A stretch of DNA of 53,433 nt from Candidatus Zymogenaceae bacterium. Its GTDB lineage: Bacteria; Desulfobacterota; Zymogenia; Zymogenales; Zymogenaceae. The stretch covers positions 1 through 53,433 of the forward strand of contig JAFGFE010000004.1 in the NCBI GenBank assembly GCA_016931225.1, read 5' to 3'. Under the pieces are notes generated by a model that had not been told where the DNA came from, searched no databases, and was given only the letters and a program-made list of their open reading frames with translations. The position numbers and the translations under genes were made by a program. Of this stretch, positions 1-53,433 are shown one piece after another (within the stretch, counting starts at the first letter, position 1; every line of letters starts with the position of its first letter).

Positions 1-445
1 ACTATACCGACTACTATTGCCCGATATCTCATGTGTTTTCTCCATGAAATTTGCTCTGATCAAATATTTCTTATCATATTTTCATCAACAGGTCAATTCA
101 TGCCCGTAACGGGTAGGTCTGCGTGTCGGCCGCAACGTCTTTTTCACCCTTCATATTCGGACCGTGCCCCCGTCTGAAAGGACGGTCATATTCCCGAAAA
201 TACCATGATACCGGCCCATTTCCTGACTCGATTTATCAAGCATGTTAATAATTCATTGAAAAATTATTAATTTTAGGGGTTGAATTATCCCCGTCACGAT
301 ATACAATAGTCTGAAGACGGGTAAACGGGATTGTCAATCATACCGAGACGGTTTCCTTGGAAACACGTTTCCATCCACCGTACCCGTCGTGATATGCGTG
401 ATAGGATACACCACAGTGTCATCCGATACATTCATGGAGGCGACA
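1..445. other. intergenic, AT-rich leader of the TspO gene
   Basis: No coding frame with a ribosome site is visible here. The only recognisable signal is the promoter-like pair at 280-307 described separately, followed by an untranslated stretch of about 130 bases. The window does not begin inside a gene that I can recognise. Confidence 0.5.
280..307 (+). promoter_or_regulatory. probable sigma-70 promoter of the TspO gene
   Basis: TTGAAT at 280-285 and TACAAT at 302-307 are separated by 16 bases. Each hexamer is one or two changes from consensus. It would give an mRNA with a 5' untranslated region of about 130 bases before the start at 446. Confidence 0.4.
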
Positions 446-47655: not shown

Positions 47656-48148
47656 CGTCATGTGACGTCGTACAATCGGGGTCCGACGGCGTCTCTCTTT
47701 GGTTTTCACGGTGTCATATCCGTATTCGGCGTAATACGACATCGGATTTGACATTCAAGACGACTTTCACGGGGGATTGATGTGTGTTTTGAGACACATC
47801 GACATCTTCCAAGGCCGAGAATCATACCGAAGATCGAGAATCCGAAGATACCACATAGGGGCCGGTGACACGGCCCCGTTTCTCTCTCACGCTTTTATAC
47901 AGAAAGGAAAACCGGGGAATAGATACTTGTATGCCGTACCGTCAACTACCGGGGATATCCCCGTTTTTTGGATATGGCCGCGCCCTGCCCCCACTGAAAT
48001 TGTAAGCCGCAACCTCTTCCGACACGCACTGAAAAAAAATCCTGTTGCCATTGCGCCGACATTGACAATTCATACCACGGCTTTATATAATTCAATAGTA
48101 ATGTTGTAACCTTGATGTCATCTCGAATCTCTCTCGGAGTTGAGTCCG
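47656..48148. other. intergenic before the sigma-54 activator
   Basis: A 493-base region without supported genes. One hairpin (47858-47877) may terminate the TauE/SafE transcript. A short direct repeat CGAAGAT-CGAGAATC occurs at 47828-47850. The remainder should hold the promoter of the activator gene. Confidence 0.4.
47858..47886 (+). terminator. hairpin terminator candidate
   Basis: A 7-bp stem GGGGCCG/CGGCCCC with loop GTGACA is followed by GTTTCTCTC, a pyrimidine-rich but imperfect T run, about 200 bases after the permease gene. Confidence 0.6.
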
Positions 48149-49552
48149 ATGAATTATAATATTCTGGTTGTTTCTTCAGATCACATAACGTCCCAGGAAA
48201 TAGTCACCCTGCTCCAAAACAAGTTTTCCGTTGATATCGCCCCGGATATCCCGAAAAGCCTTGTCCAGTTTGAAAAGAAGAAATACGACCTGCTTTTCTT
48301 GGATGTCACACTCCTTGAAACGTTATCGACGGAAAGAACCATCAAGAGCGTAATCAACCAGTTTCGAGAGATTTCCAGATCCACAATAATCGCCATTATG
48401 ACGAGAATTGAGCATAACCGCCGTGGAATCATGGCAATAAAGGCCGGGGCGGATAACTACATCTCCATCCCGATACAGAAGGATGAGCTGAATACGGTAA
48501 TACAGTCCATATATGATACGGCAATGGAAAAATCCAAGCTCGACTACCTGTCTGATACCTTCTGGGATATCTCCTCTCAGCCGTTTCTCAACACGAAAAG
48601 CCCCCCCGTCATCGAGGTGATCAAGAAAATCAAGGCGGTGGCCCCAACCAAGAGCACCGTTCTCCTTATCGGTGAGACCGGAACCGGTAAGGGTGTTTTG
48701 TCCCAACTCATTCATAAGCACAGCCACCGCAGAGACGCGCCGTTCATTCAGGTACACCTGGGGGCGATTCCGGATACCCTTGTCGAAAGCGAGCTCTTTG
48801 GACATGAAAAGGGCTCATTTACCGGCGCCATTCGCAGGAAATTGGGAAAGTTCGAGCTTGCCTCAGACGGAACCATATTTCTTGATGAAATAGAAACCGT
48901 CTCGCCCCATGTCCAGATCCGGCTGTTACAGGTTCTCCAGGACGGCACGTACTATCGCGTCGGCGGCGAGGAGCCCTTGTCTTCATCCGCGCGGGTCATC
49001 GCCGCCACCAATATCGACCTCATTACGCTCTGTGAACAGGACCTGTTTCGCTATGACCTCTATTATCGCCTCAATGTATTTCCGATAGAGATTCCCTCCC
49101 TTAAATACAGAACCGAAGACATCCCCACCATGGTGCACACCATTCTCGAGCGTCTTAACCGATTTCATGAAAAAAGTATTACCGACGTACACCCGGATGT
49201 GCTTGAAGCGTTCACCCAGTATTCGTGGCCCGGTAACATAAGAGAGCTGGAAAACTTCATAGAGCGGGCGTATCTGATGGAAACGACTGATATGATTTCT
49301 CCCGAACACTTTCCCAGGGAGTTCTTCTCGGAAAAAACAACGCTGGAAGACGACATGATCATACACCCCGGAGAGAAACTGGCCTCCATCAGAGAACGGG
49401 TGGTACGAAACGCCGAAAGGCGTTATCTAATAGAGACACTGTCCTCACACAATGGATCAATTCAGAAAACCGCGGATACGGCGGGAATAACCACACGTCA
49501 ATTGTTCAATCTCATGCAAAAACACAATATTAGAAAAGAAGATTTCAAATAA
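48149..49552 (+). CDS. NtrC-family sigma-54 activator with a degenerate receiver
   Basis: The 467-residue protein has an N-terminal receiver-like domain (about 1-120), a AAA+ sigma-54 activation domain and a Fis-type helix-turn-helix at the C-terminus (GSIQKTADTAGITTRQLFNL). Walker A is GETGTGKG, the sigma-54 contact loop is GSFTGA (222-227), and Walker B is GTIFLDEI. The receiver keeps Asp52 (FLDVTLL), but its acidic pocket is reduced (VSSDH) and the usual lysine is isoleucine 107 (YISIPI), so ordinary phosphorylation is doubtful. GGAG lies nine bases before ATG 49149-equivalent start 48149; a TTG at 48140 is less likely. It lies beside two inverted repeats and a sigma-54 promoter, its probable targets. 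Confidence 0.93.
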   Translation: MNYNILVVSSDHITSQEIVTLLQNKFSVDIAPDIPKSLVQFEKKKYDLLFLDVTLLETLSTERTIKSVINQFREISRSTIIAIMTRIEHNRRGIMAIKAGADNYISIPIQKDELNTVIQSIYDTAMEKSKLDYLSDTFWDISSQPFLNTKSPPVIEVIKKIKAVAPTKSTVLLIGETGTGKGVLSQLIHKHSHRRDAPFIQVHLGAIPDTLVESELFGHEKGSFTGAIRRKLGKFELASDGTIFLDEIETVSPHVQIRLLQVLQDGTYYRVGGEEPLSSSARVIAATNIDLITLCEQDLFRYDLYYRLNVFPIEIPSLKYRTEDIPTMVHTILERLNRFHEKSITDVHPDVLEAFTQYSWPGNIRELENFIERAYLMETTDMISPEHFPREFFSEKTTLEDDMIIHPGEKLASIRERVVRNAERRYLIETLSSHNGSIQKTADTAGITTRQLFNLMQKHNIRKEDFK

Positions 49553-49603
49553 TCCCCCCACCACATCCCCCCGTGAAGAAATACCATTTCCGTTTTAAGA
49601 AAT

Positions 49604-49624
49604 ATCGGAAATTTACTTTCCGAT
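49604..49624. promoter_or_regulatory. upstream activator site 1
   Basis: ATCGGAAA and TTTCCGAT form a perfect inverted repeat with a five-base centre. The core TCGGAA-N7-TTCCGA is the same as at 49687-49705. Its centre is about 167 bases upstream of the predicted sigma-54 start site. It probably binds the activator encoded just to the left. Confidence 0.7.
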
Positions 49625-49686
49625 TATTTTTTTTCAATCATTTCAGGCCTTTGTCTTCATAATTGAGAGCGTCACAAAACATTGTG

Positions 49687-49705
49687 TCGGAAGTTCAATT
49701 TCCGA
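49687..49705. promoter_or_regulatory. upstream activator site 2
   Basis: TCGGAA and TTCCGA are separated by seven bases, the same geometry as site 1. The two sites are 82 bases apart, near eight helical turns, and thus lie on about the same DNA face. The centre is about 85 bases before the predicted start of transcription. Confidence 0.7.
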
Positions 49706-49753
49706 TATAATTCGTACGGTCGGTTAACATACTGAATTTACACAAACAAAATT

Positions 49754-49770
49754 TTGGCATGGATATTGCT
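49754..49770 (+). promoter_or_regulatory. sigma-54 promoter
   Basis: TTGGCATGGATATTGCT has the invariant GG at 49756-49757 and GC at 49768-49769 with exactly ten bases between, matching TTGGCAC-N5-TTGCT closely. Transcription would start near 49781. An ATG inside this element (49759) cannot be the translation start of the next gene. Confidence 0.85.
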
Positions 49771-49797
49771 ATTATTCTCGGGCAGGAAGGTGAAGAG

Positions 49798-50061
49798 ATG
49801 TCCGACACAAACCATCACAATGACCTGTTGACCATTCAGGGGATTATGATTGCATCGGACTGGAATAAGGAAGGCGATGTGATACGGATTGCTATTATGA
49901 CAGATGACGAGGAAGAATTCTTTATTCTCAAAAACAAGTATTGGGATCAACTCCTCGCCCATTTGCGAGAGCCGGTAAAGATACTTGGGGTGATTGATTT
50001 CGATGACGATGAAAGAGGAACTATAACGGTAATCTCGTTTGAACCAATAGAAGCGATTTAA
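49798..50061 (+). CDS. 87-residue protein of unknown function, first gene of a sigma-54 operon
   Basis: The product is a small acidic cytoplasmic protein with predicted strands and one amphipathic helix (LLTIQGIMIASDWNKEGDVI, FILKNKYWDQLLAHLREPVK, TVISFEPIEAI). I do not recognise it. I took ATG 49798 because GGAAGGTG lies in front and because the longer start at 49759 falls inside the sigma-54 promoter. It ends 22 bases before the first CoA-transferase gene and is surely co-transcribed with it. A regulatory or assembly role for the transferases is possible. Confidence 0.72.
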   Translation: MSDTNHHNDLLTIQGIMIASDWNKEGDVIRIAIMTDDEEEFFILKNKYWDQLLAHLREPVKILGVIDFDDDERGTITVISFEPIEAI

Positions 50062-50083
50062 TACTACCATGGAGGACTCAACT

Positions 50084-51412
50084 ATGAGCTGGGAAAAGGA
50101 GTATCAAAAGAAACTCGTCAGCGCGGATAAGGCCGTTGCCGGTATTACCTCCAACAACGTCATCATGATGTCTGGAGGATGCAGTGCACCGCCCGCCCTG
50201 GTCGATGCTCTGTGCAAACGTAAAGATGAACTCAAAAATGTCACCCTGATTTCAGGCATCTCCGTTTATCCATTCGAATTCTATAAGTCGGAATTCAAGG
50301 GTCATATCAATTTCCGCTGCCTGTTTATGGGTCCCGCCGAACGTATTGCCATGAAGATGAAGGCGAATATCGAGCCGGTCTCGTTTCACTTGTCACAGTC
50401 CGATGAGATTGTCGATGAAATGCTGGAGATGCACGACAGGAAGAAATACGACTACATGATGTGCGAGGTCTCGGAACCGGATGCCAGGGGATACATGAGC
50501 TACGGCCCTAATGGCGTGCATAACAACGATACCGTGGTACCGGTCGCTGATAAGATCGCCGTCCAGGTCAACAAGGAGACGCCCTTTGTCCACGGTATTA
50601 AAAATGTCATCCATGTCAGTGAGGTCGATTATATCGTCGAGGAGTCCCATCCACTGCCGGAAATTCCGCAGATTCCAATATCCGACGTGGAACAGAAAAT
50701 CGGCGAACTCATTGCCGAGCGCATTCCCAACGGCGCCACGATACAGATCGGCGTGGGGGGTGTTTCCGACACCGTGGGTGAGCTCCTTATAAGCAAAAAA
50801 GACCTGGGGATCCACTCCGAGATGCTGACCAATTCCATGATGCATCTGACCGAGAAGGGGGTTGTTACCGGAAAGAAAAAGACGTATCGCCCCGGAAAGA
50901 TCGTGTGCGGATTCGCCATCGGCTCGAAGGCCCTGTACGATTTTATTGACAATAATCCGGTGTGCGAGTTTTCTCCCATCGCCGAGATCAACAACGTGTT
51001 CAATATCGCACAGAACGACAATTTTGTTTCGGTCAATAATATCCTCAACGCCGACCTGACCGGGCAGTGCGCGTCCGAATCCATAGGGTTCCAGCAGATA
51101 AGCGGGACCGGCGGACAGCTCGACTTCGTTCGCGGCGCCAATATGTCTAAGGGTGGAATGGGCTTTCTGGCGATGCCGTCGGTGCGGGAGTCGAAGGATG
51201 GTCCGGTCTCCCGGATTGTATCCACCATGATGCCGGGCACCGTTATAACCACCCCCCGTTCGGATGTGCATTACATCGTTACCGAGTACGGCGTTGCAAA
51301 TCTCAGGATGCGATCCATACCGGAGCGGGTGAAGGCGATGATTGCCATCGCGCATCCTGATTTTCGTGATCAGTTGACAAAAGAGGCCGTTGAGAACGGG
51401 CTGTTGGACTAA
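50084..51412 (+). CDS. acetyl-CoA hydrolase/transferase family CoA-transferase, copy 1
   Basis: The 442-residue enzyme belongs to the family of 4-hydroxybutyrate and butyryl-CoA:acetate CoA-transferases. It shows the N-terminal helix-rich part with SEVDYIVE, the glycine-rich QIGVGGVSDTVG, the catalytic glutamate in GIHSEML (residue 246), SGTGGQLDFVRGA and the C-terminal PRSDVHYIVTEYGVANLRMRSIPER. It would move CoA between short acyl groups, with a glutamyl-CoA intermediate. GGAGG lies eight bases before ATG 50084. It follows the 87-aa gene and precedes a paralogue. The acyl substrate cannot be fixed by eye. Confidence 0.92.
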   Translation: MSWEKEYQKKLVSADKAVAGITSNNVIMMSGGCSAPPALVDALCKRKDELKNVTLISGISVYPFEFYKSEFKGHINFRCLFMGPAERIAMKMKANIEPVSFHLSQSDEIVDEMLEMHDRKKYDYMMCEVSEPDARGYMSYGPNGVHNNDTVVPVADKIAVQVNKETPFVHGIKNVIHVSEVDYIVEESHPLPEIPQIPISDVEQKIGELIAERIPNGATIQIGVGGVSDTVGELLISKKDLGIHSEMLTNSMMHLTEKGVVTGKKKTYRPGKIVCGFAIGSKALYDFIDNNPVCEFSPIAEINNVFNIAQNDNFVSVNNILNADLTGQCASESIGFQQISGTGGQLDFVRGANMSKGGMGFLAMPSVRESKDGPVSRIVSTMMPGTVITTPRSDVHYIVTEYGVANLRMRSIPERVKAMIAIAHPDFRDQLTKEAVENGLLD

Positions 51413-51568
51413 TAGTCCTGCCCGTGTATGCTATTCAGGGGGAGTACAAAATCAGCATGACCGCTTCATGAACTCAGCAACAGGTTGGAAGCGTGATTTC
51501 AAGGCACGAACGAGCACTCCTCTCAACAGAAGTTATACATCACCACAGACAGGAAGGAGAAATACACT

Positions 51569-52876
51569 ATGAAATGGGAGGATGAATACAAGAAGAAACT
51601 CGTTTCTGCGGAAGTTGCGGTCAAGTCCATCAAGTCCGGGGACACCGTGGGCATGCCCGGCGGCAGCAGTCAGCCTATTGACATTGTCGCCGAACTCGCA
51701 AAACGCAAGGACGAGCTGACCGGGGTAACCGTCTACTCAGGCATCTCGATGTGGCCCCATGAGATTTTCAAGGCCGAGTTCAAGGGACACATAGACTTCG
51801 TCTCTCTGTTCGTCGGGCCGATGGAGCGTCCCTTTTTAAAGGACGGCAATGTAGAGCCGATTTCCTATCACTTTTCGCTTGGAGATCAGATGAGCGTGGC
51901 CGCCGGGTGTAACGTCTATATGTGCGAGGTCTCGGCTCCTGATCCCCGGGGTTATATGAGCTTCGGCCCCGTGGGTGTGTATAACGGTGACATGATGTCC
52001 AAATTGGCGGATACCGTCATCGCACAGGTCAACGAGCATACGCCGTTTGTGAATGGGAGCCAGACGGTGATTCATGTCAGCGAGGTGGATTACATCGTTG
52101 AAAACCACCACCCGCTGTCTGAAATACCCGAAATTCCGATAGGCGAAGTGGAACAGAAGATCGGCGAGCTCGTCGTGGAACGCATTCCCGACGGGGCCAC
52201 TATCCAGATCGGCATCGGCGCCGTTTCCGATGCGGTCGGGAACCTTCTGAAAGATAAAAAGGACCTGGGCGTCCATACGGAAATGATGACCAACTCCATG
52301 ATGCATCTCGCCAACAAGGGAGTCATCAACTGCAGCAAGAAGACGTTCCACCCCGGAAAGATGGTGTGCGGTTTCGCCATCGGCAACACCGATCTGTACA
52401 AATTCGTTGATCATAACCCGGTTTGCGAATTCGCTCCCATCTACTACGTCAACAACGTCAACAACATCGCGAAAAACGACAACATGGTATCCATCAACAA
52501 CACGATGACGGTTGACCTGACGGGCCAGTGCGCCTCTGAGTCCCTCGGATTCTCCATGTACAGCGGCACCGGCGGACAGCTCGACTTCGTTCGGGGAGCC
52601 ACTCAGTCCAAGGGTGGAAAGGCGTTCATTACGCTTCCCTCAACAACCGAGACCAAGAGCGGCACCATTTCCCGTATCGTGTCTTCCTTCAAGCCGGGCA
52701 CTATCATCACCACGCCTCGATCCGACGTCCAATATATCGTGACCGAATTCGGTGTTGCGGACCTGTGGATCAAGAGTATACCCAAGCGGGTCAAGGCGAT
52801 GATCAGTATCGCGCATCCCGATTTCCGCGATCAGCTTGAAAAAGAAGCAAGGGAGGTTGGATTACTAAAAGACTAA
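51569..52876 (+). CDS. acetyl-CoA hydrolase/transferase family CoA-transferase, copy 2
   Basis: The 435-residue enzyme is clearly a paralogue of the preceding gene, alike from KLVSAEVAVKSIKSGDTVGM through to PRSDVQYIVTEFGVADLWIKSIPKRVKAMISIAHPDFRDQL. The catalytic glutamate lies in GVHTEMM (residue 238). Differences cluster between residues 88 and 118, where copy 1 has a longer segment; this may tune the acyl pocket. AGGAAGGAG precedes ATG 51569. The 156-base gap from copy 1 has no terminator, so they probably share the sigma-54 transcript. It ends just before the repeat array. Confidence 0.92.
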   Translation: MKWEDEYKKKLVSAEVAVKSIKSGDTVGMPGGSSQPIDIVAELAKRKDELTGVTVYSGISMWPHEIFKAEFKGHIDFVSLFVGPMERPFLKDGNVEPISYHFSLGDQMSVAAGCNVYMCEVSAPDPRGYMSFGPVGVYNGDMMSKLADTVIAQVNEHTPFVNGSQTVIHVSEVDYIVENHHPLSEIPEIPIGEVEQKIGELVVERIPDGATIQIGIGAVSDAVGNLLKDKKDLGVHTEMMTNSMMHLANKGVINCSKKTFHPGKMVCGFAIGNTDLYKFVDHNPVCEFAPIYYVNNVNNIAKNDNMVSINNTMTVDLTGQCASESLGFSMYSGTGGQLDFVRGATQSKGGKAFITLPSTTETKSGTISRIVSSFKPGTIITTPRSDVQYIVTEFGVADLWIKSIPKRVKAMISIAHPDFRDQLEKEAREVGLLKD

Positions 52877-52900: not shown

Positions 52901-53433
52901 CCTGCCCTCCGGAAGACTCAGCAACTTAGCACTGCAACTCAACATTGACCGGATCTCCAACAGCCAGCAGACGGATGATACACATGGGTGAGGGCAGGTT
53001 ACATTTTCCCGGATTTAAAGAACATGACCTGCCCTCCGGATGACTCAGCACTGACCGGACCTCCAATAGCCAGCAGATGATACACATGAGTGAGGGAATG
53101 ATACACATGAGCGAGGGCAGGTTACATTTTCCCGGGTTTGAAAAACATGACCTGCCCTCCGGATGACTCAGCACTGACCGGATCTCCAATAGCCAGCAGA
53201 TGATACACACGAGTGAGGGAATGATACACATGAGCGAGGGCGGGTCAACATATTTTTTCGAGGATTGAAGAACATGACCTGCCCTCCGGATAACTCAGCA
53301 TTTACCGGATCTCCAACAGCCAGCAGACGGACACACATGGGCGAGGGCAGGTCAATTCACCGAGGATTGAAGAACATGACCTGCCCTCCGGATAACTCAG
53401 CACTGACCGGATCTCCAACAGCCAGCAGACGGA
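52901..53433. repeat. tandem array of about 100-127-bp units with complementary ends
   Basis: Five unit starts with CCTGCCCTCCGGA lie at 52901, 53028, 53151, 53278 and 53380 (spacings 127, 123, 127 and 102). The last is cut by the window edge. Each unit ends in GAGGGCAGG (52990, 53113, 53343; variant GAGGGCGGG at 53236), the reverse complement of its start, so each can form a long-arm hairpin. Inside, TCCGG-15 bases-CCGGA makes a smaller hairpin. A block ATGATACACATGAG(T/C)GAGGG occurs twice in units 2 and 3 and once in others. Linkers between units are more variable. No coding function is likely. Confidence 0.9.

Follow-up and report, generated by a model that had tools for sequence, protein, structure and literature searches.

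A conserved sigma-54 activator circuit around a small predicted OB-fold protein, with a probable stress role, in a Candidatus Zymogenaceae bacterium

What does a sigma-54 activator serve when its gene stands directly before a small gene outside the Pfam families and two genes of acyl-CoA metabolism? The question is raised by a stretch of 53,433 nucleotides (contig JAFGFE010000004.1, assembly GCA_016931225.1; hereafter the window) that is contig 4 of the 3.73 Mb, 99% complete genome of a Candidatus Zymogenaceae bacterium of the phylum Desulfobacterota. A preliminary description read the locus as a local circuit, running from the activator through upstream activator sites (UAS) to a sigma-54 promoter, that governs an 87-residue protein (S87 in the following) and two CoA-transferases for the sake of short-chain acyl-CoA exchange. 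The reading favoured here, to which we give a probability of roughly 0.7, is that of a sigma-54 regulon which would answer a stress-type signal and have S87 as its core product, the CoA-transferases having been added in this species.

The gene of the activator (467 aa; 48149-49552, plus strand) is preceded by a putative sigma-70-type promoter (TTGACA-N18-TATAAT, 48062-48091, plus strand) that agrees with the consensus at 12/12 positions, which suggests that the activator is apparently not under its own control here. The 245 bp between activator and S87 contain a putative distal (49605-49623) and a putative proximal (49687-49705) UAS, both exact TCGGAA-N7-TTCCGA palindromes, 82 bases apart and the sole exact matches within the window; a degenerate candidate third site with two mismatches (49576-49592) lies 30 bp from the distal palindrome. 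The 17-bp core of the proximal site stands 50 bp before the TGGC of a putative, near-consensus sigma-54 promoter (TGGCATGGATATTGC, 49755-49769, plus strand), whose sequence TTGGCATGGATATTGCTA carries the GG-N10-GC motif with GG at 49756-49757 and GC at 49768-49769, and from whose geometry alone a transcription start near 49781 is predicted. S87 (49798-50061, plus strand), CoA-transferase 1 (442 aa; 50084-51412, plus strand) and CoA-transferase 2 (435 aa, sharing 64% identity with the first; 51569-52876, plus strand) follow. Repeats, promoter and genes are all present as first described, at the coordinates then given, and an Rfam search of the window gave no match.

The genome-wide search for the repeat proposed in the preliminary description returned 3 exact matches in 3.73 Mb, of which 2 are those of the locus. 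The third (C36:59276) and 11 places with one mismatch are all inside open frames of at least 60 aa, the coding frame at C36 having been judged by eye, and a sigma-54-like site was found near 1/12 of these places, at 411 bp, in the 1.4-1.6 kb inspected around each. Looser patterns for a unit of site and promoter recovered the known locus and one place on contig 42 whose palindrome is half degenerate, so that on present sequence the circuit appears to have one target in its source genome, S87 with the CoA-transferases.

Conservation of the activator provides the frame for judging these sites. Among 59 relatives searched, nine genomes (own included) matched the activator at E<=2e-124, followed by a best remaining match at 3e-87, a gap that marks the activator as a distinct orthologous group. 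With a limit of 1e-88, set after this gap had been seen, the activator is present in 34/297 genomes of the phylum, in every case but one at 3e-120 or better, and a profile of its C-terminal part found 176 relatives in named-species genomes, among Desulfobacterales, Desulfovibrionales, SAR324, Chitinivibrionales, Omnitrophota and Aminicenantes. The cultured species Desulfocarbo indianensis and Desulfosarcina widdelii are represented among these loci. The 34 genomes of the phylum and 80 of the 176 named-species matches yielded 105 distinct loci after merging those with identical last 150 residues; they include related species and are not independent, and at least 2.5 kb of downstream sequence is available in 92 of them.

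Within 300 bp downstream of the activators, 27 exact CGGAA-N7-TTCCG sites were found in 21/104 loci against 0.04 expected, and 70 sites with at most one mismatch in 45/104 loci against 1.5 expected; upstream of the activators (103 loci) the numbers were 8 exact sites (0.02 expected) and 28 with at most one mismatch (1.34 expected). Conservation in front of the orthologous operon was the test that the preliminary description had set for the repeats, and they do recur there. Spacing is conserved as well: in 58 distinct units of site and promoter the distance from site to TGG is 49-56 bp with a mode of 53 (search window 48-58), and in an open search from 0 to 200 bp 36 counts fell at 50-59 and two at 40-49, with the ranges 0-39 and 60-79 empty. 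A second site lies further upstream in 46/58 units, the pooled consensus of the relatives is ATCGGAACT-N3-AGTTCCGAT, and doublets 29-31 bp apart (three helical turns) dominate, an arrangement to which the weak and distal sites of the window conform. In the majority of units with a spacer score of 8 or 9 of 9, an IHF-type sequence (WATCAA-N4-TTR) stands about 19 nt before the promoter; it is perfect in 13/58 units against 0.5 expected from shuffles of single bases, not of pairs. A pattern scan matched 20/34 activator-positive and 36/263 activator-negative genomes of the phylum, so that about one genome in seven matches without an activator. These comparisons of sequence show that activator and small gene are conserved together with the sites, their spacing and the promoter, and the local activator-UAS-promoter circuit of the preliminary description is strongly supported by the conserved motif, order and spacing.

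The protein itself has the domain order of a response regulator of the NtrC class. PF00158, the sigma-54-interacting AAA+ domain, is matched at 6.2e-61 (205.4 bits, cut-off 20.2), the Fis-type C-terminal helix-turn-helix (HTH; PF02954) at 2e-5 (24.6 bits, cut-off 22) and the receiver (PF00072) at 6.4e-8. Its loop reads GSFTGA, as in 14 of 82 full-length orthologues, 66 of which have GAFTGA; PMC4641369 counts GSFTGA among the tolerated variants. The receiver aligns with those of the PmrA type, only one canonical receiver having given a useful alignment. The classical phosphorylation pocket of a response regulator consists of an acidic pair, an aspartate and a lysine. In the window receiver this pocket is incomplete: the phospho-aspartate (Asp52) is retained, as in 78/82 full-length orthologues, the acidic pair at 9-11 is lost and so is Lys 107, which is Ile here and Tyr in 58/82. 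An adjoining cognate kinase is likewise rare, a kinase-like frame within 600 bp having been found in 3/105 loci with three kinase-region queries at E<=1e-8, by which a distant kinase could be passed over. The activator is therefore likely an orphan in most genomes, responding to a signal other than that of a dedicated neighbouring kinase.

S87 is the most constant companion of this activator. A profile of ten members detected it in 42/297 genomes of the phylum, 28/34 of the activator-positive and 14/263 of the activator-negative ones (Fisher p 3e-23, kinship ignored), and in 42 of the 105 loci it follows the activator at up to 2.2 kb in the same orientation, while it is divergent in 10 and lies elsewhere in the stretch in 9. 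The ten profile sequences are also among the loci, and an unsupervised BLAST clustering of neighbours is the less circular check; there, too, S87 is the commonest cluster (42 loci), followed by a D-Ala-D-Ala-ligase-like ATP-grasp protein (18), an aminomutase-like protein (11), a kinase-like protein (10), an unrelated-looking upstream protein (10), GroEL (8) and a DksA-like protein (8). The window S87 has no match in Pfam, NCBIfam or PHROGs and no convincing sequence match in the PDB, and its sequence alone found no relative in the contigs of named-species genomes. DUF5818 was considered as its family and set aside, the window protein giving no match and 8/55 family members matching at E<=0.01. 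AlphaFold (pLDDT 90.6) predicts an OB fold of five strands and one short helix, with strands at 10-22, 28-34 and 40-43, the helix, and strands at 59-68 and 74-83. The best Foldseek E was 1e-3, and structural comparison with VIA ranked the single-stranded DNA-binding protein 4dam first (76 residues at an rmsd of 2.8, Z 8.3) and placed NlpE and NigD-like domains little lower; a Z near 8 may mean a shared fold only. The acidity of S87 (pI 4.3; 19 acidic and 7 basic residues) argues against nucleic-acid binding, and we infer that it binds protein instead. Among its relatives are forms that look exported, tandem copies and a fusion to a peptidoglycan-binding domain. In two loci (L030 7330-7929; L245 from 6560 onward) the OB-fold protein continues into a membrane stretch and such a domain, recognised by Pfam in the former and by eye in the latter.

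The other genes found behind the same sites suggest what kind of signal the regulon may serve. Activator sites and a sigma-54 promoter precede groES-groEL in L032 (G035; 289-2557) and in L210 (a Desulfobacterales genome; 1683-3852), with groES lying between promoter and groEL in both, and the unit precedes groEL in L221. Activator loci contain eight groEL genes in all. The proximal site occurs together with the promoter in two cases (L210, L221); in L184 and L244 there is a promoter with sites further up or out of place, in L071 a site without promoter, and in three neither. The unit also stands before an S-adenosylmethionine decarboxylase-GNAT-ATP-grasp operon (L139), before a lysine-aminomutase-like/ATP-grasp operon (L140, where the distal site is exact and the proximal one has two mismatches), and before genes for a CBS-domain protein (L150), an HGSNAT/DUF418 membrane protein (L151) and a glycosyltransferase (L147). 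It is this company that suggests a stress response. An operon of a lysine-2,3-aminomutase-like radical SAM protein and D-Ala-D-Ala-ligase-like ATP-grasp proteins, in some cases with acetyltransferases, recurs in L140, L142, L143, L183, L223 and L245, and may make a peptide or an osmolyte. A lysine-2,3-aminomutase homologue of the source genome (contig 10), examined as a second target, has neither sites nor a fitting promoter. It belongs to a lysine-fermentation-like cluster (89000-104000 of that contig, neighbours read by eye), which suggests amino-acid fermentation in this organism. At the contig end of the window (52975-53347) there is a 123-bp tandem repeat in three copies, with shorter 21-bp repeats inside.

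The CoA-transferases belong over their full length to the acetyl-CoA hydrolase/transferase family, with PF02550 and PF13336 above cut-off in both (PF13336 at 1.6e-60 in the first and 3.6e-63 in the second). Against the model of butyryl-CoA:acetate CoA-transferase (TIGR03948) they score 339.6 and 353.7 bits, below its equivalog cut-off of 674.8. They are probably co-transcribed with S87 in this species because the first of them begins 22 bp behind it on the same strand. The same closeness would fit a dedicated metabolic circuit, in which an AtoC-like activator would sense short-chain acids or an imbalance of acyl-CoA and induce the CoA-transferases, with S87 as an accessory; so would the nearest solved relatives of CoA-transferase 2, which are 4-hydroxybutyrate CoA-transferases (nearest PDB chain 3eh7), and the fact that AtoC (NF008469) is the best NCBIfam model of the activator by score. 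That score is, however, 312.9 against an equivalog cut-off of 714, so that AtoC is not accepted as the identity of the activator, and a CoA-transferase homologue is found in 0/104 other activator loci within the stretches examined. Genomes of the same family carry CoA-transferase orthologues at 53-64% identity. In one of them (G002) activator and S87 are together on contig 46 and the orthologue is on another contig, where its neighbours are genes for universal stress proteins and for a fusion of acetyl-CoA hydrolase with GNAT (L262 2221-7739); two others (G001, G003; 88-89% complete) have orthologues, yet neither S87 nor, at E<=1e-88, the activator. We therefore regard a circuit dedicated to these enzymes as unlikely. 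The position of the CoA-transferases behind S87 looks lineage-specific, and the acyl-CoA purpose of the preliminary description, which finds no support as the function of the circuit, survives for them as a plausible local addition behind the promoter.

The palindromes could also be explained without a circuit. The distal one might be a mere terminator of the activator gene, leaving the proximal one as the only site that matters, or both might be hairpin elements: at 49604-49634 an eight-pair stem is followed by the T-run TATTTTTTTT, and a folding energy of -8.0 kcal/mol is predicted for the 37-nt stretch. The stem has, however, only 3 G-C pairs, a T-tail follows only 22/70 of the sites downstream of activators and 13/45 of the first sites, the spacing from site to promoter is fixed, and the sites recur before groES, the S-adenosylmethionine decarboxylase gene and other genes that have no activator gene upstream. 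This makes a purely structural role improbable, and clearly more so than the metabolic circuit; the distal site could nonetheless double as terminator of the activator gene. Chance palindromes beside a chance promoter-like sequence would agree with the frequency of loose promoter patterns and with that of the motif with up to two mismatches, which occurs 5 times in the window against 4.7 expected from window shuffles. Since shuffles contain the two-mismatch motif about as often, the case for the sites rests on their exactness and conservation; exact sites, order and spacing are kept between genera and even phyla to a degree far beyond that of shuffles, and coincidence is hardly credible.

The favoured reading, a regulon with S87 at its core, would work as follows. 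The activator, expressed at a presumed basal level through its own sigma-70-type promoter, would bind as an NtrC-class protein to palindromic sites in helical phase, two of them strong and one weak; upon what is probably a stress-type signal it would drive sigma-54 RNA polymerase at 49755-49769 to transcribe S87 and, in this species, the two CoA-transferases behind it, the binding, the start site, the co-transcription and the stress role being the parts that we infer. Activator, sites and S87 would form a core kept across Desulfobacterota and some other phyla, to which other lineages would add groES-groEL, S-adenosylmethionine decarboxylase or the lysine-aminomutase-like/ATP-grasp operon. Several observations weigh against this picture. 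S87 is undetected in 6/34 activator-positive genomes of the phylum and is not seen in 44/105 loci (in the stretch examined), most SAR324 loci being without S87 and without sites; under half of the loci (45/104) have a downstream site with at most one mismatch; the best IHF score of the window spacer is 7/9, on the minus strand, which is the commonest chance score and gives no convincing IHF site; scans of the source genome found no second target; and the stress role, probable as it is, is read from the accompanying genes of other genomes. A more far-reaching version, to which we would give somewhat less than even odds, sees a phylum-crossing and hitherto undescribed sigma-54 stress regulon that in several lineages has taken over groES-groEL, polyamine synthesis and an aminomutase/ATP-grasp pathway whose product may be a protective peptide or osmolyte, with S87 as founding effector or as feedback sensor on the degenerate receiver, and with fermentative CoA-transferases added in the lineage of the window.

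Anaerobic Desulfobacterota and their neighbours have many sigma-54 activators without known role, and for one of these a binding motif is now predicted, along with a fixed promoter architecture, a target list and a conserved small protein. The results suggest that chaperonin genes are under sigma-54 control in some of these bacteria. They also correct an inference from gene neighbours, as the metabolic genes beside the switch are the least conserved part and it is S87, not the CoA-transferases, that is conserved behind the promoter. The regulon with its activator, sites and S87 is apparently undescribed so far: among the papers listed by literature searches, titles and abstract openings name neither the motif nor S87 nor the regulon, a scope that does not imply absence from print. 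The main text of PMC4641369 has no aminomutase, CoA-transferase or GGAA/TTCC site string and its Table 1 no matching entry, and a search listing for that paper gave no occurrence of groEL.

The mechanism, as judged from these features, is a real but ordinary, textbook-style sigma-54 circuit, and its parts are best placed by comparison with known systems. S87 is alike in fold to OB-fold proteins such as single-stranded DNA-binding proteins, NlpE and NigD-like domains, to which its sequence bears no relation, and the CoA-transferases share both Pfam halves and full-length similarity with 4-hydroxybutyrate and butyryl-CoA:acetate CoA-transferases, with scores below the TIGR03948 cut-off. With NtrC-class two-component activators the system has in common the order of receiver, AAA+ domain and Fis-type HTH, the GAFTGA-type loop, tandem palindromes above a GG-N10-GC promoter and, in relatives, an IHF-type sequence between them; it differs in a receiver where, with the phospho-aspartate kept, both acidic pair and lysine are gone, and in having a kinase-like neighbour in only 3/105 loci. 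Its style is that of the sigma-54 regulons of Desulfovibrio vulgaris as presented in the main text of PMC4641369, which comprise a single to a few operons with the activator gene beside its target.

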